Shown here: in pieces, positions 8,613-54,566 of the stretch
How positions within the stretch are numbered: position 1 is the stretch's first letter
Layout: the number at the start of each line of letters is the position of its first letter
Source: Nakamurella lactea DSM 19367
GTDB lineage: Bacteria; Actinomycetota; Actinomycetes; Mycobacteriales; Nakamurellaceae
Assembly (NCBI RefSeq): GCF_000426645.1
Contig: NZ_AUFT01000005.1
Location: 1-64,000, forward strand
Reading direction: 5' to 3'
DNA length: 64,000 bases
Notes under the pieces: generated by a model
Database searches by the model: none
Told to the model about the DNA's origin: nothing
What the model saw: the letters and a program-made list of their open reading frames with translations, nothing else
Made by a program: the position numbers and the translations under genes

Positions 8613-8648
8613 GCAATATATTGCACCGGACCTGGTGGACCGTGTCAA
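8612..8648 (-). promoter_or_regulatory. gntR-acdS promoter with 14-bp operator palindrome
   Basis: On the minus strand a perfect TTGACA (8648-8643) precedes, with a 19-bp spacer, CAATAT (8623-8618). The perfect palindrome TGCAATATATTGCA (8612-8625) spans this -10 and reaches the first base of the gntR ATG. Transcription would start at or beside the ATG, so the mRNA may be leaderless. The palindrome is the natural candidate for autoregulation by the GntR protein. Confidence 0.65.
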
Positions 8649-8834
8649 GCCGACGAGGCCCCTGTCTAGGTCGCCACGGCTTGGGCGAAGCCGAGGGCTG
8701 GCCGGCATCGAGCCGGGCCGAGCTCTCGGCGATCGACGCGAGGGCCGCGGGTGTCACCCTGAGTCACCGCTGAACCATTTGTTGCGGCAGTTGCGTGAAG
8801 GTGATTGAGAATGGCGGAAAACGCGCAGCGAACA

Positions 8835-8863
8835 TTGCCGGGGATCGACCATCGACGTAGCGT
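8835..8863 (+). promoter_or_regulatory. Candidate leaderless promoter of the GH3 gene
   Basis: TTGCCG (8835-8840), a 17-bp spacer and TAGCGT (8858-8863, TANNNT) are placed so that transcription would start at about 8870-8872, the ATG of the GH3 gene. No ribosome-binding site precedes that ATG. The rest of 8649-8834 shows no gene that I can support. Confidence 0.45.
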
Positions 8864-8871
8864 CTCGCGCC

Positions 8872-10734
8872 ATGACACGACGAGCGGGCGGCAGGTTCAC
8901 CGGACGATTCAGGATGGCGACAGCAACAGCGGTTTCCCTGTTGATGGCCGGCTCGATGCTGGCCCCGGCCGCTTCTGCCGCGGCTTCGGCGCCGTCAGCC
9001 CCCGTCGCATCCGAGATCTCCGGCTCGTCGGCCTCGGCTCACCAGCGGCCGGACCTCTCCGAGCTGCTCGGTCGGATCTGGGCCCGAAACACGCTACGGC
9101 ACATGACGATCCAGGAGAAGGTCGGTCAGCTGTTCTCCACCCATGTCTACGGCACCACGGTCGACTCGTCGGACCCGAACAATGTCGCCGAGTACGGTCT
9201 GGCCACCCCGCGGGAGATCATCGCCAAGTACCACCTCGGTGGCGTGCTCTACTTCGCCTGGACCCACAGCGTCGACAACCCCATCCAGGCGGCCGGTTTG
9301 TCGAACGGCATCCAGCGAGTCGCTCTGAGTACCGGTGCACACGTCCCGATGTTGATGTCGATCGACCAGGAGGGCGGGCTGGTCACCAGGATGCTGGAGC
9401 CGGCGACCCAGACGCCGGGCGCGATGGCTCTGGGCGCCACCCGTGACGCCGACGGTGCCCGCGATATCGCCGCCATCCAGGGCAAAGAGCTTGCCGCCGT
9501 CGGCGTTCGGCAGAACTTCGCCCCGGTGGCCGACGTCAACGTCAACCCTGACAATCCGGTGATCGGCGTGCGCTCGTTCGGCTCGGACCCGACCACCGTC
9601 GCCCGGCTCACCGCCGCGCAGGTGCGCGGCTATCAGGACGATGCCGGGATCTCTTCCGCCGCAAAGCATTTCCCCGGACACGGTGACACCGACGTTGACT
9701 CGCACTACGGATTCCCGGTCATCAATCACACCCGGCAGCAATGGGACGAGATCGACAAGCCGCCGTTCGAGGCGGCGATCAAGGCCGGGATCGACGTCAT
9801 CATGACCGCCCACATCCAGGTACCGGCGCTCGATCAGTCCGGTGACCCGGCCACCCTGTCCAAGCCCATCCTGACCGGGATCCTGCGTGGCGAACTCGGC
9901 TTCAAGGGCGTCATCGTGACCGATTCACTCGGTATGCAGGGCGTACGGGACAAGTACGGAGATGCCAGGGTTCCGGTACTCGCGCTGAAGGCCGGTGCCG
10001 ACATCCTGCTGAACCCGCCGGATCTGGACGTCGCCTACAACGGGGTGTTGTCCGCGGTGGCCTCCGGCGAATTGACCACCGGGCGGATCGACGAGTCCGT
10101 CACCCGGGTGCTGATGCTGAAGTGGCGCAACGGGACGGTCCTGCATCCGTTGGTGAACGAGCGAAAGGTACCGGCGATCGTCGGCATCCAGCCGCACCTT
10201 GACCGGGTCCAGCAGGTCACCGACGACTCGACGACGGTGCTGAGCAACGACGGTGGCACGCTGCCGTTGGCGGTGTCCGGCAAGAAGATCCTGGTGACCG
10301 GTTACGGCGTCACGACCAAGCAGACGTTGGCCGACAAGCTCGCCGAGCGTGGTGCCGACCCGTCGATCGCCGCCACCTCGACCAATCCGACCGATGCGCA
10401 GATCTCCGGTGCGGTCGCGGCCGCCGGCGCGACCGATGCCACCGTCGTGCTCACCATGAACGCGGCGGCGTCGCCCGGGCAGGCGAAGCTGGTTGCCGCC
10501 TTGCGGACCAGTGGCGCCACGGTGATCGTCGCCGCGGTCCGCAATCCTTACGACGTCGCCGAGTTCCCCGACGTACCGACCTACCTGGCCACCTACTCCT
10601 ACCAGGCAGTGGCCATCGAGTCGCTGGTCCGGGTGATTGTCGGCGAGGTCGGACCGACGGGCACTCTTCCGGTCGCGGTACCGGAGAAGGGCGGCGGCAC
10701 CCTGTACCCGCTCGGGGCCGGTCTGACCTGGTGA
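8872..10734 (+). CDS. Secreted glycoside hydrolase family 3, beta-N-acetylhexosaminidase type
   Basis: A 620-residue exported enzyme. Residues 1-40 form a twin-Arg-rich or Sec signal (MTRRAGGR, then a hydrophobic core ending ASAAASA). The GH3 TIM barrel follows: MSIDQEGGLVTR, NFAPVADVN, the NagZ-type loop KHFPGHGDTDVDSH with its catalytic His near residue 277, and the nucleophile Asp near 351 in VIVTDSLGMQG. A C-terminal beta-sandwich domain (about 430-620) is present. The KHFPGHG signature marks N-acetylglucosaminidases, so peptidoglycan or chitin fragments are likely substrates. If the start is not ATG 8872, an ATG at 8914 would give a shorter signal peptide. Confidence 0.9.
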   Translation: MTRRAGGRFTGRFRMATATAVSLLMAGSMLAPAASAAASAPSAPVASEISGSSASAHQRPDLSELLGRIWARNTLRHMTIQEKVGQLFSTHVYGTTVDSSDPNNVAEYGLATPREIIAKYHLGGVLYFAWTHSVDNPIQAAGLSNGIQRVALSTGAHVPMLMSIDQEGGLVTRMLEPATQTPGAMALGATRDADGARDIAAIQGKELAAVGVRQNFAPVADVNVNPDNPVIGVRSFGSDPTTVARLTAAQVRGYQDDAGISSAAKHFPGHGDTDVDSHYGFPVINHTRQQWDEIDKPPFEAAIKAGIDVIMTAHIQVPALDQSGDPATLSKPILTGILRGELGFKGVIVTDSLGMQGVRDKYGDARVPVLALKAGADILLNPPDLDVAYNGVLSAVASGELTTGRIDESVTRVLMLKWRNGTVLHPLVNERKVPAIVGIQPHLDRVQQVTDDSTTVLSNDGGTLPLAVSGKKILVTGYGVTTKQTLADKLAERGADPSIAATSTNPTDAQISGAVAAAGATDATVVLTMNAAASPGQAKLVAALRTSGATVIVAAVRNPYDVAEFPDVPTYLATYSYQAVAIESLVRVIVGEVGPTGTLPVAVPEKGGGTLYPLGAGLTW

Positions 10735-10740
10735 CCGGCC

Positions 10741-11502
10741 TCAAGCCTTCCGGGCGAGGTGCACGGTGAGGTCGGCGCTGATCCGCACAGAATCGGGCAG
10801 CGCCCGGCGGATTCGCTGCAGCACGGTCACTCGAGCCGACTCGGCGAGGGTGAGGTAGGCGGACACGGTCGTGAGATGGCCGAGGTAGTCGTCGGCGGAG
10901 ATCGTCATGCGCCGCTGCACGGTCAACTGCTGCACGTCGATGAAGCGTCCCGACCGGATCAGTTCGGATCCCGGCCACTGCATCGGGTCTTCCGGTGGAG
11001 TCCCGTCGGGCGAAGGGATCTCGTCGGAGTCGACGACCGCTGATCTGGCCGCCCGCACCGCGGCCGCGACGTCAGGGTCGGCCGGCTGCAGCTGGCCGCC
11101 GAAGGAGGCGAAGGTCCCGCCCGGCGCGAGCAGCGCGGCGATGCGTGCCGGACGTTGCCGGGCCGCCGTCCAGTGCAACGCGGCCGCCGCGTACACCAGG
11201 TCGTAGCCATGGTCGATCGGTATCAGTTCCTCGAACGCCGCCAGCACCGTCGTCACCGTTGCCGGCAGGTGGGTGCGCAGCTCCTCGAGCATGGCCGGGT
11301 CGGGTTCGCTGGCGGTCACGGCGATGCCACGACCGGCGAATGCCCGGGTGGCCTTGCCGGTGCCGGCGCCGATCTCCAGCGCGGTCCGGACCGGGCGGCC
11401 GGCGTAGCCGAGCACGTGATCGACGAGTTCGTCCGGGTAGCCGGGACGGAATCGCTCGTAGGCCGCCGCCGCCGATCCGAAGCTCCGTGAGCGCTCGGTC
11501 AT
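10741..11502 (-). CDS. Class I SAM-dependent methyltransferase
   Basis: A 253-residue protein with the SAM-binding motif I ALEIGAGTGKATRAFA near residues 40-55, an acidic motif II (VTASEPDPAM) and YDLVYAAAALHWT typical of the methyltransferase 11 family (YcgJ/UbiE-like). The substrate is unknown. It converges on the GH3 gene with only six bases between the stops, so neither gene has its own visible terminator here. Confidence 0.85.
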   Translation of the reverse strand: MTERSRSFGSAAAAYERFRPGYPDELVDHVLGYAGRPVRTALEIGAGTGKATRAFAGRGIAVTASEPDPAMLEELRTHLPATVTTVLAAFEELIPIDHGYDLVYAAAALHWTAARQRPARIAALLAPGGTFASFGGQLQPADPDVAAAVRAARSAVVDSDEIPSPDGTPPEDPMQWPGSELIRSGRFIDVQQLTVQRRMTISADDYLGHLTTVSAYLTLAESARVTVLQRIRRALPDSVRISADLTVHLARKA

Positions 11503-11619
11503 CTGGTCGGCCCTGTCATCTGGTCGGCTTGGTCATGGTCGGCCCTGGCATCCGGTGATCCTCCCGCATTACGTCGATCCGGACAGCGTGACGTCTCCGT
11601 GGTGAGCTCCCGCCACACT

Positions 11620-11648
11620 TTGTGTATCGAACATCTGTTCGATACGAT
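11620..11648 (+). promoter_or_regulatory. imuB promoter with LexA box in its spacer
   Basis: TTGTGT (11620-11625) and TACGAT (11643-11648) are separated by 17 bp. The 22-bp palindrome GTATCGAAC-ATCT-GTTCGATAC (11624-11645) fills the spacer, the classic position for LexA repression. It is the exact reverse complement of the imuA' box. Confidence 0.85.
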
Positions 11649-11669
11649 GAGGTGGTCGAAGGAGGAGCG

Positions 11670-13364
11670 ATGGTCCGCACGCTGGTGGTCTGGTGTCCGG
11701 ACTGGCCGGCGGTGGCCGCGGCCCAGCAGGCCAGGAAGCCGGCCACCGGGCCGGTCGCGGTGTTCCACGCCAACCGGGTGCAGGCCTGCACCGCTGCCGC
11801 CAGGGCCGACGGTATCCGGATCGGCATGCGCCGCCGGGAGGCGCAGTCCCGGTGCCCAGAACTGGTGGTGCTGCCCGTCGATCACGATGCGGCGGGTCGT
11901 GCGTTCGAGTCGGTGGCCGCGGCGGTGGAAGCCGTTGCGCCGGGAATCGAGGTGCTCAGGCCCGGCATGATCGCCTGCCCTGCCCGTGGTCCACGACGCT
12001 ACTTCGGTAGCGAGAATGCTGCCGCCGAAAGGATTGTCGACGCCGTCGAGGCGCTCGACGTTGAGGCCAGGGTCGGCATCGCCGACGTATTGCCGGTGGC
12101 CGTACTGGCCGCCCGTCAGCAGCGGATCGTTCCGGTCGGGGACGCGGCCGAGTTCTGCGCCGGGTTGCCGATCGCCGAACTGGCCAGGGACCCGGCGATC
12201 TCCCCGCCGGAGCGGGCCGGCCTTGTCGATCTGTTGGTGCGGTTGGGCATCACCACCGTCGGGGCGTTCGCGGCGTTGCCACAGGAGCGGGTGGCCACCA
12301 GGTTCGGGCCGGATGCCCTGCTGGCGCACCGGCTGGCCCATGGTCTGGCCGAACGGGGGATCTCCCGGCGCAGCATCCCGCAGGACCGGGTCATCGAGCA
12401 GGTCTGCGATCCGCCGCTGGACCGGGTGGACACCGCTGCCTTCCTCGGCCGGGCGCTGGCCGAGAGGTTCCACGCCGGTCTGGCCGACGCCGGCCTGGCC
12501 TGTACCCGGCTGGCCATCTCCGCGCGTACCGAGCGCGGTCGGACCCTCCGGCGGGTCTGGCGGTCGGCCAGGCCGCTCACCCCGGCCGCCACCGCCGACC
12601 GGTTGCGCTGGCAGCTCGAGGGGTGGCTCACCTCCACTGCCCGGCGTGACACTGCCCGGCAGGATGCGGTCCGGTCCGGCAGCGCGTCCGATCCCACCGA
12701 GAGCGCCGGTCCCGGCGCCATCATCGCGTTGCGGCTCGAACCGATCGAGGCCGTGGACGCCGGCCGGGTGCAGTACGGCCTGTGGGGCAGCGACGGCGAG
12801 GACGATCACCGCGCCGGCTGGGCGTTCGCCAGGGTGCAGGGCCTGCTGGGGCCGGAATCCGTTCTGACGCCGGTTCTTTCGGGCGGACGTACGCCGGGCG
12901 ACCGGGTCACCCTGGTCAGCTGGGGTGACGAGCGGGTTCCGGCCAGGGACCCCGCCGCGCCCTGGCCCGGCGCGTTGCCGGCGCCGTCACCCACCAGGCT
13001 CGCCGATCCCAGCCGGCCTGGTGGTCAGCAGGCCGGGCGGGAGCGGATCGGTGCGACCCGGCGGGTCGAACTCCTGGACGACGTCGGGCGCCCGGTGTTG
13101 CTGACCGGGCGCGGGCTGTTGAGTGCGACCCCGGTTGCCGTCGACGGCCGGCAGATCGCGGGGTGGGCAGGGCCGTGGCTGGTCGACGAGCGGTGGTGGG
13201 AACCGAATCAGCCGCCCGCATCACTGGTCGCGGCACCGCCGCAGGTCGCGGCCCGGATGCAGGTGCTCTGCCGCGACGGACCCGTCCTGTTGCTGCGATA
13301 TCTGACCGCGGCATCGGTGCAGAGTCCGGCACAACCATGGCAGATCGAGGGGGTGTACGACTGA
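11670..13364 (+). CDS. imuB: ImuB, catalytically degenerate Y-family polymerase of the SOS mutasome
   Basis: A 564-residue DinB/UmuC-like protein beginning MVRTLVVWCPDWPAVAAAQQ. In active Y-family polymerases this first motif carries metal ligands and FFAxVE; here it reads CPDWPAVAA. The SIDE motif is replaced by a GPRRYFGSE segment, so catalysis is lost, as known for ImuB. ImuB is the adaptor binding the beta clamp, ImuA' and DnaE2. Palm, fingers and thumb regions are recognisable to about residue 330 and a long Arg/Pro-rich C-terminal region follows. The start at 11670 has AAGGAGG upstream. The stop overlaps the dnaE2 ATG by one base. Confidence 0.9.
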   Translation: MVRTLVVWCPDWPAVAAAQQARKPATGPVAVFHANRVQACTAAARADGIRIGMRRREAQSRCPELVVLPVDHDAAGRAFESVAAAVEAVAPGIEVLRPGMIACPARGPRRYFGSENAAAERIVDAVEALDVEARVGIADVLPVAVLAARQQRIVPVGDAAEFCAGLPIAELARDPAISPPERAGLVDLLVRLGITTVGAFAALPQERVATRFGPDALLAHRLAHGLAERGISRRSIPQDRVIEQVCDPPLDRVDTAAFLGRALAERFHAGLADAGLACTRLAISARTERGRTLRRVWRSARPLTPAATADRLRWQLEGWLTSTARRDTARQDAVRSGSASDPTESAGPGAIIALRLEPIEAVDAGRVQYGLWGSDGEDDHRAGWAFARVQGLLGPESVLTPVLSGGRTPGDRVTLVSWGDERVPARDPAAPWPGALPAPSPTRLADPSRPGGQQAGRERIGATRRVELLDDVGRPVLLTGRGLLSATPVAVDGRQIAGWAGPWLVDERWWEPNQPPASLVAAPPQVAARMQVLCRDGPVLLLRYLTAASVQSPAQPWQIEGVYD

Positions 13365-16300
13365 TGGGCTGGTCCAACCCCAACGTCCCGTGGTCCGAGC
13401 TGGAACGGGCGCTGTCGGGTCGGCCGCCCCCGCCCGGCCGCGGGCCGGGAGCGTTCGTGCCGGCCCCCGAGAACCCGTCAGGAGACCCGTCAACCCTGCC
13501 GGAGGATCCGCGCGGTCCGCACCCCGATCTGCTCGGCCCGGTGTCCCGGCACCGCCGGGACCGTCTCCGACCGCCCGTGCCGGCGTCACCGCAGACCAAG
13601 GTGGCATCGAAGACCAGGGTGCCGTTCACCGAGCTGCATGCGCATTCGGCGTTCAGCTTCCTGGACGGCGCGTCTAACCCCGAACAACTGGTCGGTGAGG
13701 CGGTCCGGCTGGGCCTGGACGGCCTGGCCCTGACCGATCATGACGGCTTCTACGGAGTGGTCAGGTTCGCCGAGGCGGCGGCCGGCACCGGGCTGAAAAC
13801 CCTGTACGGATCGGAACTCTCGCTCGGCCTGCCGGAGCCGCAGCTCGGCGTTCCGGATCCGGTGGGGGAGCACCTGCTGGTGCTGGCCCGTGGTCAGGAG
13901 GGTTATCGGAGGTTGTCCCGGCAGATCAGTCGGGCGCAGCTGAACGGCGGCGAGAAGGGCCGTCCGAGCTATCAGCTGGATGCGCTGGCCAACGCCGCGG
14001 ACGATCATTGGTTGATCCTCACCGGTTGCCGCAAGGGCAGCGTCCGCCGGGCACTGCAGCGACACGGCCCCGATGGCTCCCACGGTGCCCGGGAAGCCTT
14101 GCGGCAGTTGACGGATCGATTCGGGCGGGACAACGTGGTGGTGGAGTTGACCTCGACAACGGCGCCGACCGACGACGAGGACAACGACATGCTGGCCGCG
14201 CTGGCCGCCGAGTTGCGCCTCCCGCTGGTGGCCACCACCGGTGCGCATTACGCAACGCCGGACGCGAGCCGGCTCGGCGCCTCGTTGGCCGCGGTCCGGG
14301 CCAGGCGGAGCCTGGACGAGGCGGATCCCTACCTGCCGGCCGGTCCCGGCGCACACCTGCGGTCCGGCGCGGAGATGGCCGCGCTGTATGCCCGTCATCC
14401 CACCGCGGTGCCGACCGCTGCCGCCATCGGCGAGCAATGCGCCTTCGACCTGACCCTGATCGCGCCCAACCTGCCGCCCTACGACGTACCGCCGGGGGCG
14501 GACGAGAACAGCCATCTGCACGAGCTCACCATGGCCGGCGCGGCCCGGCGTTACGGGTCGCGGGCGGACAATCCGGCTGCCTACCGGCAGCTCGACAAGG
14601 AGCTGCGGATCATCGCGGAGCTCGAGTTCCCTGGTTACTTCCTGATCGTCAACGACATCGTGAAGTTCTGTCAGGACAACGACATCCTCTGTCAGGGTCG
14701 GGGATCGGCGGCCAACTCGGCGGTCTGCTATGCGCTGGGCATCACCGCCGTCGATGCGGTGCGCTACGAGCTGCTCTTCGAACGGTTCCTCGCCCCGGAG
14801 CGGGACGGACCGCCGGACATCGACGTCGACATCGAGTCCGACCGCCGGGAGGAGGTGATCCAGTACGTCTACACCAAGTACGGCCGCGACCATGCCGCGC
14901 AAGTGGCCAACGTCAACACCTTCCGGCCACGGATGGCGGTGCGGGACATGGCCAAGGCGATGGGGCACTCGCCGGGGCAGCAGGATGCCTACTCCCAGCA
15001 GATCGACGGCTGGACTCCACTGATCGCACAGCGGCAAGCAACCGGAGGCGCAGATCGCGGCCGACCGGCCGGCCGCGCCGACTCCACCGGCCGCGCCGAC
15101 TCAACCGGCAGGGACGGATCCACCGACGATGACGGCCTGCAGATCCCCGCCCCGGTACTGGATCTCGCGCAACAGGTACAGGACTTCCCGCGGCATCTGT
15201 CCATCCACTCCGGGGGCATGGTGATCTGCGATCGGCCGGTGGCCGAGGTCTGTCCGGTGGAGTGGGCCAGGATGGCGAACCGATCGGTGCTGCAGTGGGA
15301 CAAGGACGACTGCGCGGCGATCGGGCTGGTGAAGTTCGACCTGCTGGGCCTTGGCATGCTGTCCGCCCTGCACTACGCCGTCGACCTGATCGCCGACCAC
15401 GAGAACATCGAGATCGACTTCGCTGCCTTGGATCTCGAGGAGACCGCGGTGTACGAAATGTTGCAGAAGGCCGACTCCGTCGGCGTGTTCCAGGTGGAAT
15501 CCAGGGCCCAGATGGCCACCCTGCCGCGGCTCAAACCGAGAGAGTTCTACGACCTGGTGGTCGAGGTGGCGCTGATCCGGCCCGGCCCGATCCAGGGCGG
15601 TTCGGTGCATCCGTACATCCGGCGTCGCAACAAGCAGGAGAAGGTGACCTTCGATCATCCGATCATGGAGAAGTCGCTGGGTAAGACACTGGGCATCCCG
15701 TTGTTCCAGGAGCAGCTGATGCAGCTGGCCATCGACGTGGCCGGCTTCGATGCCGGCGAGGCCGACCAGCTCCGCAGGGCGATGGGTTCGAAACGTTCAG
15801 TGGCCAAGATGGAGGAGCTCAGAGCGCGCCTGTACGAAGGGATGTCGCGGCTGCACGGGATCACCGGAGCCGCCGCGGACCGGATCTACGAACGGCTGCT
15901 GGCCTTCGCCAATTTCGGTTTCGCCGAGTCGCACGCGCTGAGCTTCGCCGCCCTGGTCTTCTACTCGTCCTGGCTCAAACTGCACCATCCGGCGGCGTTC
16001 TGCGCCGCCCTGCTGCGGGCGCAGCCGATGGGGTTCTACTCGCCGCAGTCATTGGTTGCCGACGCCCGCCGACACGGCGTCACCATCCGTCTGCCGGACA
16101 TCAACCGCTCCAACTACTATGCCGATCTCGAGCCCGCCGATCTCAAGGCCGTCGAGCTCAAGCCCGCCGGCCTCAAGGCCGTCGACCTCGAGCCTGTCAC
16201 TCCCGGGCGCACCGAGCCGCGACCCGCCGGCCCGGGGGCCGGTGGCCGCCGCGCTCGCCGGTACCGAGGTCGGAACCTGCCCGGCAGCGGGACCCTCGCC

Positions 16301-17029
16301 GTCCGGCTGGGTCTGGACGAGGTGCGCACCATCGGCACGGAACTGGCCGAGCGGATCGTCGCGGCTCGGCCGGCGGACGGCTACCGCAGTATCGACCAGC
16401 TCACCCGGCTGGTCACCCTCACCTCCGCCCAGGCGGAGGCACTGGCCACCGCCGGCGCCCTTGACAGCCTGGGTCGGGCGGCCGACGGCGACCGGCCGAC
16501 CGACCGTGGGCAGGCCAGAAGGGCCGCGCTGTGGGCATCGGGTGCGGCGGCCGGAGAACGGGCCGGCACCCTGCCGGGGACGGTCGTCGGGCTGACGGCG
16601 CCCACCCTGCCCGGGATGAGCGACATCGAGCTGACCCTGGCCGACATCTGGGCCACCGGCATCTCCCCGGACCGCTACCCGACCGAATACTCCAGGGAGC
16701 GGCTGGCCGGACTGGGCGTGCGGACAGCGACCGATCTGTTCGGCGTGCAGCACGGCACCAGGGTGCTGGTTGCCGGGATGGTGACCCATCGGCAACGACC
16801 GGCGACGGCGTCGGGCGTGGTGTTCATCAACCTCGAGGACGAGACCGGGATGCTCAACATCATCTGCTCCAACGCGCTGTGGCGCCGCTACCGACGGGTG
16901 GCAAGGGGAGCGCCCTCATTGCTGATCCGCGGAATGGTGGAACGGGCAGGTGGTGCCATCTCGGTGCTGGCCGATCGGATAGCCGCGGTCGACCTGATCG
17001 TCGCGATGCCCTCCAGGGACTTCCGCTGA
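13364..17029 (+). CDS. dnaE2: Error-prone DNA polymerase III alpha subunit DnaE2 (ImuC)
   Basis: A 1221-residue C-family polymerase, somewhat longer than usual. It begins MGWSNPNVPWSELERALSG, the typical DnaE2 start. After a Pro-rich stretch comes the PHP domain (TELHAHSAFSFLDGAS near residue 88), then the catalytic Asp motif PPDIDVDIESDRREE near 482, helix-hairpin-helix region and an OB domain with FINLEDETGMLNIIC near 1150. Two inserts stand out: a Gly/Arg/Ser/Thr stretch near 562-589 and a repeat stretch near 920-962. It is coupled to imuB by a TGATG overlap and therefore LexA controlled. It performs mutagenic translesion synthesis with ImuA' and ImuB. Confidence 0.95.
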   Translation: MGWSNPNVPWSELERALSGRPPPPGRGPGAFVPAPENPSGDPSTLPEDPRGPHPDLLGPVSRHRRDRLRPPVPASPQTKVASKTRVPFTELHAHSAFSFLDGASNPEQLVGEAVRLGLDGLALTDHDGFYGVVRFAEAAAGTGLKTLYGSELSLGLPEPQLGVPDPVGEHLLVLARGQEGYRRLSRQISRAQLNGGEKGRPSYQLDALANAADDHWLILTGCRKGSVRRALQRHGPDGSHGAREALRQLTDRFGRDNVVVELTSTTAPTDDEDNDMLAALAAELRLPLVATTGAHYATPDASRLGASLAAVRARRSLDEADPYLPAGPGAHLRSGAEMAALYARHPTAVPTAAAIGEQCAFDLTLIAPNLPPYDVPPGADENSHLHELTMAGAARRYGSRADNPAAYRQLDKELRIIAELEFPGYFLIVNDIVKFCQDNDILCQGRGSAANSAVCYALGITAVDAVRYELLFERFLAPERDGPPDIDVDIESDRREEVIQYVYTKYGRDHAAQVANVNTFRPRMAVRDMAKAMGHSPGQQDAYSQQIDGWTPLIAQRQATGGADRGRPAGRADSTGRADSTGRDGSTDDDGLQIPAPVLDLAQQVQDFPRHLSIHSGGMVICDRPVAEVCPVEWARMANRSVLQWDKDDCAAIGLVKFDLLGLGMLSALHYAVDLIADHENIEIDFAALDLEETAVYEMLQKADSVGVFQVESRAQMATLPRLKPREFYDLVVEVALIRPGPIQGGSVHPYIRRRNKQEKVTFDHPIMEKSLGKTLGIPLFQEQLMQLAIDVAGFDAGEADQLRRAMGSKRSVAKMEELRARLYEGMSRLHGITGAAADRIYERLLAFANFGFAESHALSFAALVFYSSWLKLHHPAAFCAALLRAQPMGFYSPQSLVADARRHGVTIRLPDINRSNYYADLEPADLKAVELKPAGLKAVDLEPVTPGRTEPRPAGPGAGGRRARRYRGRNLPGSGTLAVRLGLDEVRTIGTELAERIVAARPADGYRSIDQLTRLVTLTSAQAEALATAGALDSLGRAADGDRPTDRGQARRAALWASGAAAGERAGTLPGTVVGLTAPTLPGMSDIELTLADIWATGISPDRYPTEYSRERLAGLGVRTATDLFGVQHGTRVLVAGMVTHRQRPATASGVVFINLEDETGMLNIICSNALWRRYRRVARGAPSLLIRGMVERAGGAISVLADRIAAVDLIVAMPSRDFR
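16124..16183 (+). repeat. 30-bp tandem repeat in dnaE2
   Basis: Two ten-codon units (DLEPADLKAV and ELKPAGLKAV), followed by a partial third (DLEPV). They lie between the polymerase core and the C-terminal domains. Confidence 0.8.
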
Positions 17030-22170: not shown

Positions 22171-23784
22171 GTGCCTAACTGGATCTGGATCCTCATTGTC
22201 GTAGTTGTCGTTGTCGCCGCGTTGTTCGTGGTCGGCCTGATGCGGGCGAACCGCCGTCGGATCTCGCTGCGGGACACAGCGCCGACCAAGCCTGCGGCCG
22301 TTGACGCCGGCAAGCCTCCCGCGAAGGGCGGCTACAAGGCCGGCGGATCGATCTCGTTCTCCAGTGGATCCGGGACAGCCGTGCAGGACCGGCCGCCGGC
22401 GCCGGCCCCCGAACCCTCACCAGAACCCGAACGCACCGAACCTTCACCTCAGGCAGAACCGTCGCCCGGAGCCGAATCGTCAGCTGCGGTCGAGCCTGCC
22501 GTCGAACCAGCCGCTGAGTCGCGGCCCGCGGAGGACGCAGTTCCGGGCGCGCAATCCGGGTCGGTAGCGCAAGCGACGCCGGTCGAAGACGCGGCAGCGG
22601 TGCCGACCGAGGAGGCCCTCCCTGCGGTGACCGGCCCGGCGGTCGAAACGACCCCGGCCCCTACCACTGCGGCACCCAGCACTGCGGAATCCAGCCCTGC
22701 GGAATCCACCACTGCGGAATCCACCACTGCGGAATCCAGCACTGCGGAATCCAGCACTGCGGAATCCAGCACTGCGGAATCCAGCACTCCGGAATCCACC
22801 ACTGCGGCCCCCGCCACCGTGCAAGCCACCGGCGTGGAGCCATCGCCGGATACCGAGATCGCCCCGACCGACGGCCGGCTCAACCGCCTGCGCGGCCGGC
22901 TCTCCCGCTCACAGAACGCCTTCGGCCGCTCCATGCTCGGCCTGCTCGGGGCCGGCACGATGGACGAGGACTCCTGGACGGATGTCGAGGACACCCTGTT
23001 GCTGGCCGATCTCGGCGCGCAGGCGTCAGCCGAGATCGCCGAGAAGCTGCGGGCCGAAGTGGCGGCCAACGGCATCGGCAGCAGCGCCGAGGCCAGGGCG
23101 CTGCTCCGTCGGGTCCTGGTGGAGGCCGTCGACCCGAGCATGGAACGCAGCGTCCGGGCACTGCCGCACGACGGCCGGCCGTCGGTGTCGCTGGTGGTCG
23201 GCGTCAACGGAACGGGAAAGACCACCACCACCGGCAAACTGGCCAGGGTGCTGGTGGCCGACGGTCACAAGGTGGTGCTCGGGGCCGCCGACACCTTCCG
23301 GGCGGCTGCAGCGGACCAGCTGGCTACCTGGGCGGAACGTGCCGGCGCCACCGTGGTGCGCGCCGATGCCGGCGCCGACCCGGCCTCCGTCGCCTTCGAT
23401 GCGGTGAAGACCGGGATCGCGACCGGCGCCGATGCGGTGTTGATCGACACCGCGGGGCGCCTGCACACCAAGGCCGGCCTGATGGACGAACTGGGAAAGG
23501 TCAAGCGGGTCGTCGAAAAACAGGCCGAGGTGGACGAGGTGCTGCTGGTGCTGGACGCCACCACCGGACAGAACGGGTTGGTCCAGGCCAGGGTGTTCGC
23601 CGAGGTCGTCAACATCACCGGCATCGTGCTGACCAAACTGGACGGGACCGCCAAGGGCGGGATCGTGGTGGCCGTGCAACGGGCCCTCGGGGTGCCGGTC
23701 AAGTTGGTCGGGCTCGGCGAGGGACCGGACGATCTGGCCCCGTTCGAAGCCGGCGCCTTCGTGGACGCCCTGCTCGGCGACTGA
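22171..23784 (+). CDS. ftsY: Signal recognition particle receptor FtsY
   Basis: A 537-residue SRP GTPase receptor. A single N-terminal membrane segment (WIWILIVVVVVVAALFVVGL) follows the GTG start, then a long acidic low-complexity region (about residues 45-230) with ten Thr/Ala/Glu/Ser repeats. The NG domain fills the C-terminal 300 residues: G1 GVNGTGKTTTTGK near 344, DTFRAAAADQL, G3 DTAGRLHTK and G4 TKLDGTAKGG. It receives ribosome-SRP complexes together with the product of ffh, which lies five genes downstream. The acidic linker is longer than usual because of the repeats. Confidence 0.95.
   Translation: MPNWIWILIVVVVVVAALFVVGLMRANRRRISLRDTAPTKPAAVDAGKPPAKGGYKAGGSISFSSGSGTAVQDRPPAPAPEPSPEPERTEPSPQAEPSPGAESSAAVEPAVEPAAESRPAEDAVPGAQSGSVAQATPVEDAAAVPTEEALPAVTGPAVETTPAPTTAAPSTAESSPAESTTAESTTAESSTAESSTAESSTAESSTPESTTAAPATVQATGVEPSPDTEIAPTDGRLNRLRGRLSRSQNAFGRSMLGLLGAGTMDEDSWTDVEDTLLLADLGAQASAEIAEKLRAEVAANGIGSSAEARALLRRVLVEAVDPSMERSVRALPHDGRPSVSLVVGVNGTGKTTTTGKLARVLVADGHKVVLGAADTFRAAAADQLATWAERAGATVVRADAGADPASVAFDAVKTGIATGADAVLIDTAGRLHTKAGLMDELGKVKRVVEKQAEVDEVLLVLDATTGQNGLVQARVFAEVVNITGIVLTKLDGTAKGGIVVAVQRALGVPVKLVGLGEGPDDLAPFEAGAFVDALLGD
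22666..22815 (+). repeat. 15-bp tandem repeats in the ftsY acidic linker
   Basis: About ten copies of ACTGCGGAATCCAGC and close variants, encoding TAESS or TAEST five-residue units. The period is a multiple of three, so copy changes keep the frame. Confidence 0.92.
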
Positions 23785-48006: not shown

Positions 48007-48906
48007 TCAGCGGGTGCCGTCGATCGCCGCCTCGATGGTCCTGGTGACCGATCGAGGATCGGAGATCATCGGCAGGTGACCGGTTCTCGCGGTGCTGATG
48101 TGGGATCCGGCGCGGACGGCCATCGCCCGCTGGGCCGCGGCCGGGATCACCTTGTCGATGGTGCCGATCTGATACCACGACGGGATGCTCTTCCAGGCGG
48201 GTGCCGACGACGGTTCGCGGAGTGCGCCCAATGTCACCGGTCGTTGGGACACCGCCAGCACCTTCGCAATCCGGCCGGGCAGATCGTTGGCGAACGCCGT
48301 CACGAACAGCTTTGGAAGCACATACAGCTCGGTGGCGGCAGTGGGTGGCAGGGTCGTCGGGACGAACCGGAAGAGCTTGGTGGGATCCGGGTCGGCCAAC
48401 GCCGAATCGGGTCCGGGCAGCGCCAGCACGGGCTCGCCCAGGTCGGGCGCGAACGCGTCGACATAGACCAGGGCCTTGACGTTCGCATTGCCGGTAGCGG
48501 CATCGCTGATCACCGCGCCTCCGTAGGAATGGCCTACCAATACGATCGGACCGTCGATGGCGCCGAGGAAATCACGGAGCGCCGCGCTGTCGTCGGACAG
48601 GCTCTGCAAAGGTGTCGGGAACACCTGAACGTCGACCCGATCGTCCTGCAGCCGCTGGACCACGCCACTCCAGCTGGCGCCGTCCGCCCAGGCACCGTGC
48701 ACCAACACGACGGTGGGCACCGGCCCCTGCGGATGCTGGGTGGGGTGCTGGGCTGCGGCTTTCGGCAACGAGTGGGCCGCGGCCGCGGAGCCGGCTGCGG
48801 CAGACGCAGGGACCACGCCGGCGAGGATCAGGCCGACGACGGCCAGGGTCACCCCCAGGGTCCGGCGACGGCGGTGCGGTGAGTGACGGTGTGTCTGCGG
48901 CTTCAT
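48007..48906 (-). CDS. Exported alpha/beta hydrolase
   Basis: A 299-residue protein with an Arg/His-rich N terminus, hydrophobic signal segment (LGVTLAVVGLILAGVVPASA) and an alpha/beta hydrolase fold: TVVLVHGAWADGASW with the oxyanion hole, the nucleophile elbow LVGHSYGG, and a C-terminal GHLPMISDP His motif. It resembles the esterase/salicylate-esterase-like group; substrate unknown. It converges on dprA. Confidence 0.85.
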   Translation of the reverse strand: MKPQTHRHSPHRRRRTLGVTLAVVGLILAGVVPASAAAGSAAAAHSLPKAAAQHPTQHPQGPVPTVVLVHGAWADGASWSGVVQRLQDDRVDVQVFPTPLQSLSDDSAALRDFLGAIDGPIVLVGHSYGGAVISDAATGNANVKALVYVDAFAPDLGEPVLALPGPDSALADPDPTKLFRFVPTTLPPTAATELYVLPKLFVTAFANDLPGRIAKVLAVSQRPVTLGALREPSSAPAWKSIPSWYQIGTIDKVIPAAAQRAMAVRAGSHISTARTGHLPMISDPRSVTRTIEAAIDGTR

Positions 48907-48966: not shown

Positions 48967-49956
48967 TCAGTCACGGACCAGTAGCACCGTCTTGCCGGGC
49001 GGGCGGTCGAAGTGCGCGCCGCTTTCGAAGGCAGCCCGGCCGGCGGAAAGCGGAAAGGTGGAAGCGATCTTGACCTCGAGTTCGCCGGCGTCCACCATCG
49101 CAGCGAGCGCACTCAGTTCGTCGCGGTTCGGGCTGACGACGAAGAACAAACCCTGAATGCCGTGCCGCGCGACCATTTCGGCGGACGGCGGCGCCTGCAG
49201 TGTCACCAGTCGACCGCCGGCGACCAGCACTGGGTACGAGCGCTCGAGGGTCGCGCCGCCAACCGTGTCGATGACCACGTCGAACGCCGCCGGTGTCGCG
49301 TCGAACTGTTGCGTGGCAACATCGATCACCCGGTGGGCGCCGAGTCGCAGGACGTGTGCCACGTCGGCGGTGAAGGCGGTGGCCGTCACCCGCGCGCCCA
49401 GTCGGGCGGCGATCTGGGTGACGTACGAACCCACGCCACCGGCGCCGCCGTGCACCAACACCCGCTCGCCCGGCTGGACCTTCGCCTGGTCGACGAGCGC
49501 CTGCCAGGCCGTCAGCGCGGCGAGCGGCACCGCAGCGGCGACGGTGTGTCCGACCGTCCGTGGCCGCGGCGCGAGGTCGGCGGCCGGTACCGAGACATAC
49601 TCGGCGGCGGCTCCGTCGCGGTCGAACCGGATCAGGCCGTACACCTGATCGCCGACCTGCGGCCAGGTCACTGACCGACCGACGGCGACGACCACTCCCG
49701 ACACCTCGTGGGACGGAATCATCGGCAGGTGCTTCCAGACCTCGTCCCACCCGAGTTCGGCGAAGGTGATGGCGGCGGCATGCACCTCGATCAATGCCTC
49801 GTCGTCGGCCACGGGCGGCGTCGGGGCCGGCTCCAAGGCCAGTTGCTCGGGCCCGCCCCGTCGGTGCGCCCGCAGTGCTGACATGGTTGCCGGCACCGGA
49901 CCGGAACGGGTACCTGGCACGACCGCAGGACCGCGCGCGGTGGAATTCCTCGACAT
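48967..49956 (-). CDS. Quinone-oxidoreductase-like zinc-free MDR dehydrogenase
   Basis: A 329-residue medium-chain dehydrogenase/reductase. The catalytic domain has IPSHEVSGVVVAVG, and the NADPH site is VLVHGGAGGVGSYVTQIAARLGA. Structural-zinc Cys residues are absent, as in quinone oxidoreductases. AAGGAA stands before the ATG at 49956; ATG 49884 (MSALRAHRRGG) is an alternative. It is in a run of minus-strand genes with the SDR and hydrolase. Confidence 0.88.
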   Translation of the reverse strand: MSRNSTARGPAVVPGTRSGPVPATMSALRAHRRGGPEQLALEPAPTPPVADDEALIEVHAAAITFAELGWDEVWKHLPMIPSHEVSGVVVAVGRSVTWPQVGDQVYGLIRFDRDGAAAEYVSVPAADLAPRPRTVGHTVAAAVPLAALTAWQALVDQAKVQPGERVLVHGGAGGVGSYVTQIAARLGARVTATAFTADVAHVLRLGAHRVIDVATQQFDATPAAFDVVIDTVGGATLERSYPVLVAGGRLVTLQAPPSAEMVARHGIQGLFFVVSPNRDELSALAAMVDAGELEVKIASTFPLSAGRAAFESGAHFDRPPGKTVLLVRD

Positions 49957-49998: not shown

Positions 49999-50781
49999 TC
50001 ACAGGGTGGTGATCAGGCCGCCGTCGATGATGTACGTGGCGCCGGTGACGTTGGCCGACGGCGCTCCGGCCAGCAGCAGGATCAGGTCGGCCACCTCCTC
50101 AGGTCGGGTGAACCGGCCGGTGATCATCTGCTGGGCGGCTGCGGCCGCCACGTCGTCGGCGGAGCCGCCGGTCCGATCGGCGACCGTCCGCGCGACGCCG
50201 CCGGCGCCGAGCCACAGATCGGTGGCCACCGGTCCGGGCGCGACGCTGTTCACCCGGATTCCGCGGCGGCCGAATTCCTTGGACAGCGACTTGGCCAGGC
50301 TGGACGAGGCAGCCTTGGCAGCGCTGTAGTCCAGCACCGCCGGGTCCGGCAGCATTGCGTTGACCGAACCGGTGAAGACGATCGAGCCGCCGTTCCCGGC
50401 GAGCATCACCGGCAGCGCCGCGCGGGTGGTGCGAACCGCGGCCATCAGGTTGATGTCGAACGTGTCTGCCCACTGCTGGTCGGTGATCGCCAGGAAACCA
50501 CCGGTTCGAGCGGGTGCGGACCCGACGTTGTTGACCAGCAGATCGATCCGATCACCGGCGGCCGCGATGAGTTCGGCGGGGCCGTCCGGCGAGCCGAGGT
50601 CCACCTCGACGAACTGGACGGGACCGGCAGACTGATCCTGCGCCAACGGCTCCGGCAGGTGCCGGGCGCCGGCGATCACCTGCATCCCTTCCCGCAAGCA
50701 GGCTCGCACGACCGCCAGCCCGATGCCGCGGCCGCCGCCGGTGACCACCGCGGTCCGACCGGCAAGTCCGAGTTCCAGCAC
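49999..50781 (-). CDS. Short-chain dehydrogenase/reductase
   Basis: A 260-residue classical SDR: VVTGGGRGIGLAVV cofactor motif, LLVNNVGSA, the catalytic Ser in FTGSVNA and YSAAKAA (YxxxK). C-terminal YIIDGGL is typical. Start GTG 50781 follows AGAAGGAG; the open frame extends upstream but over repeat-rich control DNA. The divergent hydrolase gene at 50994 shares its upstream region. Confidence 0.9.
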   Translation of the reverse strand: MLELGLAGRTAVVTGGGRGIGLAVVRACLREGMQVIAGARHLPEPLAQDQSAGPVQFVEVDLGSPDGPAELIAAAGDRIDLLVNNVGSAPARTGGFLAITDQQWADTFDINLMAAVRTTRAALPVMLAGNGGSIVFTGSVNAMLPDPAVLDYSAAKAASSSLAKSLSKEFGRRGIRVNSVAPGPVATDLWLGAGGVARTVADRTGGSADDVAAAAAQQMITGRFTRPEEVADLILLLAGAPSANVTGATYIIDGGLITTL

Positions 50782-50877
50782 GCCGTTTGCTCCTTCTCCG
50801 ACCGCCGCGGCCCGGCACAGTGCCGAACCGCAGGCTCGGTGCCGACGGTAGGACCGGCGCGCCGCGGCGGCTTCCGT

Positions 50878-50919
50878 CATCCGACTGCAGTCATCTGGTC
50901 ATCCGACTGCAGTCATCTG
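50878..50919. promoter_or_regulatory. Two 20-bp direct repeats with embedded palindrome, between SDR and hydrolase genes
   Basis: CATCCGACTGCAGTCATCTG occurs at 50878-50897 and again at 50900-50919, a 22-bp period or two helical turns. Each holds the perfect palindrome GACTGCAGTC. This layout suits a dimeric regulator binding two sites on one DNA face, between divergent genes. No regulator gene is directly adjacent; the LuxR/LAL protein nearby is one candidate. Confidence 0.6.
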
Positions 50920-50993
50920 ACCGAAGTGCAGATCCGGGTCCCGGTGTGACGATCACGGCGATGCGACCCCGACGGCCCAGGAGGACTTCTCAG

Positions 50994-51794
50994 ATGAGCG
51001 AACCGCAACGACCCGTCGTCTTCATTCACGGGCTGTGGCTGCATGCCACGTCCTGGACGCCGTGGATGGAGTACTTCCAGCAGCACGGCTACCAGCCGAT
51101 CGCGCCCGGCTGGCCCGGAGACCCTGACACGGTCGAACAGGCCAGGCAGCACCCGGAACTTATCGCCGATCACGGCATCGAAGACGTCACCGAGCACTAC
51201 GCGAAGATCGTCGCGGAGCTGGAGGTGCCGCCGATCCTGATCGGTCACTCCTTCGGCGGGATGATCGCGGAGAAGTTGTTGGGGGAGAACCACGGCGCGG
51301 CGGCCATCGGCATCGATGCCGCGCAGATCAAGGGCGTGCTGCCGCTGCCGCTGTCGTCGTTGCGAGCCACCCTGCCGGTCTTCAAGAATCCCGCCAACAA
51401 GCACCGGGCGGTATCGCTCACCGCCGACGAATTCCGGTACAGCTTCGGCAATGCGCTCAGCGAGGACGAATCGCAGGCGCTGTTCGACAAGTGGACCATT
51501 CCGGCACCCGGCAGGCCGCTGTTCGAGGCCGCCGCGGCGAACTTCTCGCTGCACTCACCGGCCAAGGTGCAGACGGACAACGCCGATCGCGGGCCGCTGC
51601 TGCTGGTGATGGCCAGCGAGGACCACACCGTGCCCGAGTCCATCACCAAGTCCACCTTCAAGCAGTACCGCCATTCCTCCGCCGTCACCGAACTTCTCGA
51701 GTTCGCCGGGCGCGGCCACTCATTGACCATCGATGCCGGATGGCGCGACGTCGCCGACGGCTGCCTGGGCTGGTTGACCGAACAGGGTCTCTGA
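50994..51794 (+). CDS. Alpha/beta hydrolase
   Basis: A 266-residue cytosolic hydrolase without a signal peptide. VVFIHGLWLHATSW forms the oxyanion region, the nucleophile is in ILIGHSFGG, and the catalytic His in AGRGHSLTID; the acid is probably the Asp in MASEDHTVP. AGGAGGAC lies before the ATG. Its last 75 bases overlap the convergent LuxR gene on the other strand. Confidence 0.88.
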   Translation: MSEPQRPVVFIHGLWLHATSWTPWMEYFQQHGYQPIAPGWPGDPDTVEQARQHPELIADHGIEDVTEHYAKIVAELEVPPILIGHSFGGMIAEKLLGENHGAAAIGIDAAQIKGVLPLPLSSLRATLPVFKNPANKHRAVSLTADEFRYSFGNALSEDESQALFDKWTIPAPGRPLFEAAAANFSLHSPAKVQTDNADRGPLLLVMASEDHTVPESITKSTFKQYRHSSAVTELLEFAGRGHSLTIDAGWRDVADGCLGWLTEQGL

Positions 51795-54566
51795 CGCCGG
51801 TCCGCGGCCGGACGCGCCGGCGCGGCCGCCCGTTGACGGTTCCGGTCGTCGGCTGGCCGCCGCGAGCCGGCCCGCCAACTGGCCGCGGGAGCTGATGTCG
51901 AGTTTCGGGAAGATCCGGTAGAGGTGGGAACCAACCGTCCGGTGGGACAGGAACAGCCGACTGCCGATCTCCCGGTTGGACAGGCCGTCGGCGGCCAACA
52001 GTGCGATCTGAAGTTCTTGCGCCGACAGTGGAATCCGCGCCGTCTCCGCGACTGCTGTCGATCGTCCGGCACCGGTGGCGGCGAGCTCGGCGGCCGCCTG
52101 ACCGGCCCAGGCGGCGGCACCGATCTGCTCAAGTCGGTGGTGGGCCGACCGCAGATACTGCCGCGACTCGGCGACCCGGCGGTGCCGGCGCAGCCAGCTG
52201 CCGTAGGCCAGTTCGACGCGCGCCAGCACCCAGGGCCACCGGTCAAGGTCGGCGGCCAGCGCTTGGACGAACAGCCGGTCGGCGTCCGCGTCCTGCGCCA
52301 GCACGGCCCGCGAGTACAGCAGTTGCACCCGCAACAGGGGTGACGGGGTGATCGTGGCCAGCTGCTCCATGTCGGCCAGCACCCGCCTGGCCGCGGCCTG
52401 TTCACCGACATGCACGGCGGCCTCCGCCAGGAACATGATGCCGCTGAACTGCTCGCGCTGATGATGGCAGGCGTCCGCGGTGTCGAACACTCTGGACAAT
52501 GCGCGGAAGGCATCCGCATACCGGCCGTCACTGAGCAGTGCGAAGCCGCGGGCGAGCTGCCCACAGGCCCGGAAGTCGTTGAGCGGGTGCGACATCAACG
52601 AACGATCCGCCTGGTCGGCCAGCTCGAGGGCCAGCGCCCCGTGGCCCGTCAGGCCGGCCACCCTGGCCTCGTTGACCAGGGTCCCGGCGCTCCAGATCGG
52701 TTGTCCGGTGTCGGCGGCGGCCCTTCTGCCCTCCGCCGAGGCGGCGCCGGCGCCATGCCAATCGCCCAGGTCCAGCAGTACCGACCCATGCATTCCGAGA
52801 ACCTGGGCCAGCAACCCCAGCCGGCCCTCGGCCCGGCAGGTGTGCTGCGCGCGTTCCAGGAAGTCCGCGGCCCGTGGCTGGTCGCCGATCGCGTGCGCCG
52901 CCATCCCGAGCAGCCGCAGCGCATCGGGATCGACCACCGACTCCGTCACCACCGCGGACAGCAACTCGTCCACATCGGCGGCACAGCCGACGGGTTCGGC
53001 GACGGCCAGTGCCGCGACGTATCTGGCGTCCAGATTCGCCCCTGACAGCGACCGAAGGGTGCTGGCCACCTCGGCGCCGGCCCGGGGCCCGCAGTCCGCC
53101 CACCAGCAGCGCAACGCTGCGCCCAGCAACAGGTTCAGTGCCAGATCGAGGTCGCCCGCGCCGGCCGCGACGGCGGCCCCCTGGCACAACTGGTGTACCC
53201 GGCCGGCATCACCGGGAACACCGTCGCTGAAGATCTCCCGGAGCCATTCCACCCTGGTCAGGTCCAAAGCGGACAGCGGCGTCCGCGCAGCCGCCCCGAC
53301 CAGCCGGGCGACCAGCTCGACCTGTCCGAGGGTGAAGGCGAGTTCGGCGGCCAACAGCAGCCGACGTCCCCGTCCGGCCGGATCGGCGGTCAGTTCGGCG
53401 GCCCGTTCCAGGGCAGAGATAGCCATCCGGATCGAGCCGCGACGGATGCATTCGTCATGGTTGGCCTCCAGCGCGTCGGCCACCTCGTCGTCCGGCCCTA
53501 CGACCGACTGCGAGCGGTACCAACTGCGGCGGAAGGGATCCCGGATCAGGATGTCCGCCAGCGCGGCGTTGGCAGCGTGCCGGCGCAGCCGGCCCTCCGA
53601 CTGGCGCACACCGGACCGGATCAGCGGGTGACGGAAGCGCAACCGCGTCGAACCCACCCGCACCAGCCCCGCCCGCTCGGCCGGCGCCAGAGCCGCGACT
53701 CCGACCTGCCGACCGGAGAGAACGGTTGCGGCGGCGAGGATCTCTCCGAGATCGTCCTCATCGTCGACCGAGGCCACCAACAGCACGTCCCGGGTGTCGG
53801 CCGGCAACTCTGCGGTCCGGTGCCCGAAGGCACGCTCGAGTCGCGCGGTGAGCGGGGCGTCGTCGGTCCCGGGCAGGTGTTCGGGCTGCCACACCGTCGG
53901 CAGTTCGACCAGGGCCAGCGGATTCCCGCCGGCCAGCCGCAGGATCCGCTCGACGCTCTCGGCCGGGAGCCGGACGTCGGACTGTTCGATGAGACCGCGG
54001 GCGCTGGCGTCGTCCAACGGCGGCAGGTGAAGATCGGCGAAGTCCTCCCAGGTCGGCACCCGATGGGCGGTCCGGATCGTGGCTACCACCAGCACCGGGT
54101 CGTCCGCGACCCGGCGGGCGACGAAGCCGAGCGCCGAGATGCTGGCGTCATCGAGCCACTGCAGGTCGTCGATCACCACCGCGACGGGGGTCCTGGCTGC
54201 TGCGTCGGTGATCAGGGCGAGCACCGTCATCGCCACTGCGAAGAGTTCCGGTGGTGGTCCGACCCTGATCCCGAACGCGGTGTGCAGCGCCAGTCGCAAA
54301 CCGGCTGGCAGCAGGTCTGCGTCGTGGATGACGGGCCGCAGCAACTGCTGCAGGCCGGCGTACGGCAACGGCGTCTCGGCCTCGACACCGGTGGTCCGCA
54401 ACAGCACGAATCCGCGGTCGCGGGCGCGCTGTGCATGCGCGGCCAGCAGACTCGACTTGCCGATGCCCGGCTCGCCGCGGACCACCAGGGTGCTGCCGTC
54501 GCCTGCCGCAGCGGCGGCCAACCGGGCGTCCAGCTGCCCGAGCACTTTGTCCCGTCCGAGCAGCAT
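51720..54566 (-). CDS. Large ATP-binding LuxR (LAL) regulator
   Basis: A 948-residue regulator. N-terminal AAA/NACHT-like ATPase: Walker A VVRGEPGIGKSSLLAAH near residue 28 and Walker B AVVIDDLQWLDDAS near 130. The middle is a long helical repeat region. The C-terminal HTH near 850-910 reads LSAQELQIALLAADGLSNREIGSRLFLSHRTVGSHL. A Pro/Gly tail of about 40 residues follows the HTH, unusual for the family. MalT-like LAL proteins sense small ligands; the target genes are not evident. It overlaps the convergent hydrolase by 75 bp. Confidence 0.92.
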   Translation of the reverse strand: MLLGRDKVLGQLDARLAAAAAGDGSTLVVRGEPGIGKSSLLAAHAQRARDRGFVLLRTTGVEAETPLPYAGLQQLLRPVIHDADLLPAGLRLALHTAFGIRVGPPPELFAVAMTVLALITDAAARTPVAVVIDDLQWLDDASISALGFVARRVADDPVLVVATIRTAHRVPTWEDFADLHLPPLDDASARGLIEQSDVRLPAESVERILRLAGGNPLALVELPTVWQPEHLPGTDDAPLTARLERAFGHRTAELPADTRDVLLVASVDDEDDLGEILAAATVLSGRQVGVAALAPAERAGLVRVGSTRLRFRHPLIRSGVRQSEGRLRRHAANAALADILIRDPFRRSWYRSQSVVGPDDEVADALEANHDECIRRGSIRMAISALERAAELTADPAGRGRRLLLAAELAFTLGQVELVARLVGAAARTPLSALDLTRVEWLREIFSDGVPGDAGRVHQLCQGAAVAAGAGDLDLALNLLLGAALRCWWADCGPRAGAEVASTLRSLSGANLDARYVAALAVAEPVGCAADVDELLSAVVTESVVDPDALRLLGMAAHAIGDQPRAADFLERAQHTCRAEGRLGLLAQVLGMHGSVLLDLGDWHGAGAASAEGRRAAADTGQPIWSAGTLVNEARVAGLTGHGALALELADQADRSLMSHPLNDFRACGQLARGFALLSDGRYADAFRALSRVFDTADACHHQREQFSGIMFLAEAAVHVGEQAAARRVLADMEQLATITPSPLLRVQLLYSRAVLAQDADADRLFVQALAADLDRWPWVLARVELAYGSWLRRHRRVAESRQYLRSAHHRLEQIGAAAWAGQAAAELAATGAGRSTAVAETARIPLSAQELQIALLAADGLSNREIGSRLFLSHRTVGSHLYRIFPKLDISSRGQLAGRLAAASRRPEPSTGGRAGASGRGPASETLFGQPAQAAVGDVAPSGIDGQ

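Follow-up and report, generated by a model that had tools for sequence, protein, structure and literature searches.

Divergent short-chain dehydrogenase and hydrolase genes are separated by a tandem repeat that forms part of two candidate operators, probably for an adjacent LAL regulator

In the window, by which we mean the whole 64-kb stretch of DNA analysed, an alpha/beta hydrolase gene and a three-gene unit headed by a short-chain dehydrogenase/reductase (SDR) gene diverge from a region that carries a perfect tandem repeat. A gene for a large regulator of the LAL type adjoins the hydrolase gene. These features are the following.

48007-48906, minus strand: alpha/beta hydrolase, probably exported (judged from visual inspection of the N-terminus), last of the three genes in the divergent unit (Pfam)
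48967-49956, minus strand: quinone-oxidoreductase-like MDR (ADH_N/ADH_zinc_N), middle gene of the divergent unit (Pfam)
49999-50781, minus strand: SDR, first gene of the divergent unit (Pfam adh_short_C2, 3.9e-44)
50876-50919, plus strand: perfect 22-bp tandem duplication (direct sequence, repeat finding, genome search)
50994-51794, plus strand: alpha/beta hydrolase, 266 aa (Pfam Abhydrolase_6, 8.6e-19)
51720-54566, minus strand: LAL regulator, 948 aa, proposed binder of the operators O1 and O2 described below (AAA_16, 4e-21; GerE, 9.6e-13)

The longest SDR reading frame starts at an ATG within the repeat (50880); we take its start to be the GTG at 50781, which lies behind AAGGAG and would suit the start of the SDR fold better. 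Comparison of the 266-aa hydrolase with PDB sequences gave two weak matches (E = 6.3e-5 and 3e-4), and a comparison with NCBIfam at 1e-5 gave none. The protein encoded at 51720-54566 has the layout of a LAL protein, about 900 aa long with an N-terminal ATPase (AAA_16, residues 2-161, P-loop GEPGIGKSS) and a C-terminal LuxR/GerE helix-turn-helix (HTH, residues 846-898), in which the recognition helix reads SHRTVGSHLYRIFPKL; a Pfam search of this protein found no autoinducer domain. The hydrolase and luxR genes are convergent, and their 3' ends overlap by 75 bases (51720-51794) on opposite strands.

The repeat consists of two perfect head-to-tail copies of GTCATCCGACTGCAGTCATCTG at 50876-50897 and 50898-50919 (Tandem Repeats Finder: period 22, 2.0 copies, 100% match, score 88). 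The original prediction had described copies identical over 20 bases; their tandem identity was confirmed, with an extent of 22 bp. Each copy holds the perfect 10-bp palindrome GACTGCAGTC once (50883-50892 and 50905-50914). At up to three mismatches, the own genome (27 contigs, 5,820,860 bases, 98.27% complete) contains this tandem pair only, as would not be the case for a dispersed repeat element with several copies in non-regulatory DNA, and 100 dinucleotide shuffles of the window gave 0 matches to the repeat at the same threshold.

For comparison, homologues of the hydrolase were gathered in two sets. Set 1 covered 61 genomes (the own genome and 60 relatives), 24 of which had a match at E<=1e-40, giving 30 loci; set 2 comprised the best 80 of at least 327 relatives among named genomes. 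Ten loci of set 1, the own included, and the 80 of set 2 provided 90 upstream regions. Among the set 1 loci left out, L012 and L018 coincide with L078 and L139, and the other 18 had identities below 60%.

A 20-bp palindrome around GTCA-NN-TGAC, with flanking arms, recurs upstream of these hydrolase genes. Of the 90 upstream regions (250 bp each), 16, that of the window among them, contain the core GTCANNTGAC exactly, whereas 100 shuffles gave 0.39 on average and never more than 3; at up to one mismatch, the count rises to 22 regions, the shuffle mean being 8.2. The exact core is missing from the other 74 regions, many of which have another arrangement or motif. In the window, this element is found twice, with palindromic centres at 50880.5 and 50916.5 and thus 36 bp apart, each with a putative -10 element on its outer side.

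50845-50850, minus strand: putative -10 TACCGT for SDR transcription, 25 nt beyond the O1 core; start guessed at about 50838
50871-50890, minus strand: candidate operator O1, CTGCAGTCGGATGACGGAAG on this strand, SDR promoter (window and genome searches)
50907-50926, plus strand: candidate operator O2, CTGCAGTCATCTGACCGAAG, with core GTCATCTGAC at 50912-50921, hydrolase promoter (position as in orthologues)
50948-50953, plus strand: putative -10 GACGAT for hydrolase transcription, 26 nt beyond the O2 core; start guessed at about 50960

A matrix built from 24 sites of other genomes, with the window left out, placed O2 (27.9) and O1 (20.2) at ranks 1 and 2 in the 64-kb window; the next other place (15.8 at 14098) lies within a long reading frame. 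The 24 aligned sites were collected by core pattern, which makes their invariant core partly a product of construction. Their arms are partly symmetric, in keeping with the inverted repeat of about 20 bp found at class II LuxR-type sites, and locus L098 has the perfect palindrome CTTGAGTCAGGTGACTCAAG. When the own genome was searched with CTKSAGTCANNTGACYSAAG at up to three mismatches, O2 matched with 0 and O1 with 2, and all other places with 3 (11 forward matches versus 3 for the reversed control pattern); since the window was consulted in composing this pattern, the 0 mismatches of O2 are partly built in. At locus L011, whose hydrolase shares 71% identity, CCGACTTCAGTCACCTGAC stands in place of the window's CCGACTGCAGTCATCTGAC. 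A search with CCGACTKCAGTCAYCTGAC at up to two mismatches matched 77 of 397 genomes of the order; its register was wrong and it was dropped. In the own genome, GTCANNNGACTGCAGTCNNNTGAC was found in the window and at five weaker places.

Two other repeats lie elsewhere in the window. The degenerate repeat GTCATCTGGTCGGCCCT at 11498-11556, of about 3.6 units, immediately precedes a leftward methyltransferase-like gene and has GTCATCTGGTC in common with the tandem repeat; as a candidate for a further operator it was rejected, the TGAC half-site being absent. At 22665-22807 there is an array of the 15-mer CACTGCGGAATCCAG (9.5 copies, 92% matches).

The original prediction had centred the operator on GACTGCAGTC and assigned it to an unlinked regulator. 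This palindrome is indeed perfect over 10 bp in both copies. Among the 90 upstream regions, however, it is exact in the window alone and present at up to one mismatch in five, window included; L011 has GACTTCAGTC instead. In the window, GACTGCAGTC arises where two half-sites overlap, at the junction of one site's right arm with the left arm of its neighbour. We therefore reject it as the operator centre, and an operator of this kind for an unlinked regulator seems scarcely credible. The underlying idea of a regulatory region for two divergent transcription units stands; what had to be revised are the centre and the limits of the operator, since the functional unit probably runs from about 50871 to 50926, past both ends of the span first reported.

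The spacing between operator and -10 element was examined at promoter-proximal sites, defined by an exact or near-exact core at most 120 bp from the start, with the offset counted from the core end; the four distal sites L079, L116, L117, and L147 were left out. All 16 proximal sites have NAnnnT at exactly 25 (4 sites) or 26 nt (12 sites) past the core, where about 0.3 would be expected, and at the remaining offsets between 10 and 44 this pattern occurs five times in total. As a control, 30 loci (87 kb) retrieved for an unrelated purpose contain 11 palindromes, 10 of them without a -10 element at such a distance; the eleventh, which has one, is G044's own true site. The same geometry appears on the minus strand, with TACCGT at 25 nt from O1 in the window, TAGCGT at 26 nt in L011, and TACGGT at 25 nt in L072. 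At L084, which also has an SDR gene to the left, no -10 element at such spacing was found on the opposite strand. The number of palindromes per divergent region varies: L011 has one for both sides, the window two at 36 bp, and L072 two at about 156 bp.

Class II LuxR-type activators bind near -42 of the start site. With starts placed from the -10 elements, the 25- to 26-nt spacing corresponds to such a fixed position, and O1 and O2 are each centred at about -43 of their own inferred promoter, which suggests an activator role of the class II kind. The plus-strand -10 element of the window, GACGAT, is weak, and a scan of 50700-51060 for sigma-70 promoters and terminators found nothing. A rigid distance of 25 to 26 nt to NAnnnT would also suit recognition by an alternative sigma factor, with the conserved block being its extended promoter and not an activator site. 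However, the block forms a palindrome and has its core at about -48 to -39, not at -35; a single copy in L011 serves both strands, and the block tracks LAL genes and their helix type. We consider a sigma element very improbable.

The 22-bp phase of the repeat, at first read as the operator spacing, does not match that of the good operators, which lie 36 bp apart from centre to centre; the two cores between O1 and O2 score poorly with the matrix (9.0 and -4.6, window ranks 7 and 304). Removal of one 22-bp unit would leave two operators 14 bp apart with CTGCAG in common, and the inner operator halves seem to have been duplicated recently to give the repeat. It is conceivable that this duplication arose by neutral slippage and that O2 alone matters as a single site. 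The window's repeat is found in none of the other 89 upstream regions, and two of these (L015 and L074) have perfect tandem repeats of 12-40 bp of unrelated sequence, so that function does not follow from perfect tandem repetition by itself. The poor scores of the middle cores and the single palindrome of L011, with a -10 element on both sides, point in the same direction. Yet O1, at the opposite end of the duplicated stretch, ranks second in the window and has its own -10 element at 25 nt, and we judge a merely neutral duplication unlikely.

Across the hydrolase loci, the type of recognition helix in the LAL protein goes with the motif. The palindrome, here motif A, was found in relaxed form at 13 of 24 SHRT-type versus 0 of 9 STVE-type loci (p=0.005) and with the exact core at 10 of 24 versus 0 of 9 (p=0.03), and a different motif B (CTGGGGT...CCCC) at 6 of 9 STVE-type versus 0 of 24 SHRT-type loci (p=7.6e-5); these statistics treat related sequences as independent, and all p-values given here are rough. 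The remaining hydrolase loci comprise 13 with a third helix type and 44 without an HTH in reach. At the 11 SHRT-type loci that lack the relaxed motif before the hydrolase, it was found beside luxR instead in five (L103, L119, L132, L144, and L149), and the other six show none. Within the site, a right arm ending in -AAG was present at 10 of 17 HLYR loci versus 1 of 12 HLHR loci (p=0.008), counted with one row per locus, without the repeats L174 and L176 and rows lacking an HTH in reach, and with the coding-region site L173 taken as not-AAG. The window conforms to this pattern, having an HLYR helix and -AAG arms on both O1 (minus strand) and O2.

Motif B, CTGGGG...CCCC, precedes 15 of the 90 hydrolase homologues (L013, L015, L078, L081, L085, L092, L093, L096, L099, L102, L104, L105, L120, L126, and L140). 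It goes with the LAL helix STVE(Y/F)HLNK and resembles the PAS-LuxR box; a fixed -10 offset was not found at these 15 loci. Both LAL types occur together at L081 (232-485 + upstream of the hydrolase), each then with its own motif, the SHRT type with GTCACGTGAC and TAGCGT and the STVE type with CTGGGGTCCGTCCCC.

A second line of comparison started from LAL similarity alone. In 150 genomes of the order, 14 LAL homologues outside the own genome were collected, with five candidates scored per genome, which makes absences in this search weak. Exact GTCANNTGAC lies within 1.5 kb of six of them, and the palindromes beside these six have NAnnnT at 26 nt in 7 of 7 cases. Beside three more (L184, L186, and L187), the site has a CGAC core and is accompanied by a -10 element; for five of the 14, a site with a -10 element was not found within 1.5 kb, CGAC cores allowed. 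The strict pattern TSAGTCANNTGACTSAAGCG, which the window does not match at up to one mismatch, occurs at this threshold at two places in 394 genomes of the class, both beside LAL homologues (48% and 42%). The genome of L084, a 4.2-Mb MAG, contains the operator, and no LAL protein at E<=1e-60 was found in it; in the genome of L070, the best LAL match is in two halves. In 16 genomes of the same genus, with 17 to 51 candidates scored per genome, the best LAL match reached only 36% (E 1.4e-87) and any match at E<=1e-60 was found in 3 of 16; hence, the unit is not conserved in its own genus.

At L150, three LAL luxR genes stand in a row (8203-16323) between two operator sets. Beyond the last of these genes, at 16432-16469, there is a divergent operator pair, each operator with a -10 element at 26 nt.

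Because the helix type tracks the motif and LAL homologues found independently of the hydrolase are often accompanied by the site at equal spacing, the LAL protein encoded at 51720-54566 is probably the regulator of O1 and O2. The expectation that no regulator is encoded beside the repeat thus failed: this gene adjoins the hydrolase gene and is of the type that accompanies such operators elsewhere. With the same operators, the LAL protein could act as a repressor, as does the LAL-type protein SCO6993 through palindrome binding, according to the accessible text of its description (PMC9628970), or another LAL/LuxR paralogue could be the binder. Scoring 51 of 76 candidates in the own genome gave 4 matches at E<=1e-60, and three further LAL proteins with 35-36% identity are encoded there. 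However, a fixed position near -43 without a -35 element suits activation, and O1 and O2 are the sole places in the genome with fewer than three mismatches to the operator pattern, as would suit a local regulator; moreover, the adjacent LAL has the helix type that accompanies the site. Repression or a paralogous binder appears distinctly unlikely to us.

Taken together, we favor, with a probability of roughly 0.8, a bidirectional activator-dependent promoter with twin operators, at which a dimer of the adjacent LAL protein would bind O1 and O2 and activate both units. The dimer is proposed to contact the two 20-bp palindromes via its GerE helix-turn-helix and, placed at about -43 and so adjacent to RNA polymerase as in class II activation, would make up for the missing -35 element. 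O2 would turn on the hydrolase gene on the plus strand and O1 the SDR-MDR-hydrolase unit on the minus strand. In MalT, ligand plus ATP act on the regulator. By analogy, the LAL protein may respond to a ligand in conjunction with ATP; this signal could be a compound that the encoded enzymes use or produce.

The original suggestion that the divergent genes form one catabolic unit is plausible. In the stretches fetched for the 90 hydrolase loci, SDR homologues were found at 68, LAL-like matches at 49, and MDR homologues at 5, the MDR homologue being divergent from the hydrolase in L011 and L150; the SDR side also shows the same operator-promoter geometry. These uncontrolled counts lend support to a common pathway, with the proviso that SDR and LuxR genes are abundant.

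More broadly, a large actinobacterial LAL branch might use a common operator grammar, with GTCA-NN-TGAC at a rigid distance of 25-26 nt from the -10 element, in which a residue of the recognition helix reads the outer arm (HLYR with -AAG and HLHR with -NCG); to us the odds for and against such a grammar look even. If it holds, the targets of many orphan LAL proteins could be read from genomes, and the window would represent a tandem duplication by which a bidirectional operator common to both sides became two operators, one for each side. LAL proteins are numerous in actinobacteria, with 14 putative regulators in Streptomyces coelicolor as stated in the available portion of one report (PMC3282765), and if a site recurs beside them at a constant distance from the promoter, their regulons could be predicted and then tested. 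The divergent promoter of the window also illustrates how operators may be multiplied by tandem duplication.

The lux box of LuxR-type activators is positioned near -42, and MalT, AlkS, and other LAL-type activators are large ATPase-LuxR activators of catabolic genes. The window resembles the former systems in its 20-bp inverted repeat, the GerE-type HTH, and the operator centre at about -43 of the inferred promoter, and differs from them in the sequence of the site and in its 948-aa ATP-binding LAL regulator. With MalT and AlkS, it shares a large ATPase-LuxR regulator with predicted activation of catabolic genes. MalT boxes, in contrast to the 20-bp palindrome in the window, are short and asymmetric (cited in PMC9628970, accessible text), and the same text gives the LuxR site as a 20-bp inverted repeat. 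SCO6993 of S. coelicolor, a repressor, is described there as a LAL protein that binds promoter palindromes, including that of its own promoter, much as we propose binding for the window LAL; its authors could not predict a consensus from footprinting, and the four protected sequences quoted in this text, unlike the window, lack GTCANNTGAC (PMC9628970). The PAS-LuxR box of FscRI-type regulators, CTVGGGAWWTCCCBAG in the accessible text of PMC5143413, is likewise a palindromic site of actinobacterial GerE-domain activators; its sequence differs from that of the window site and resembles motif B of other hydrolase orthologues. Among the papers listed in the literature searches, where single-sequence or logo forms would escape, none was found to give the sequence of the window's site or to link it to a LAL branch; GTCANNTGAC as a text string occurred in two papers on oestrogen. 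As judged from sequence, a palindromic LuxR-type activator site is thus of a known kind, and what appears new here is its sequence and the link to this LAL branch.
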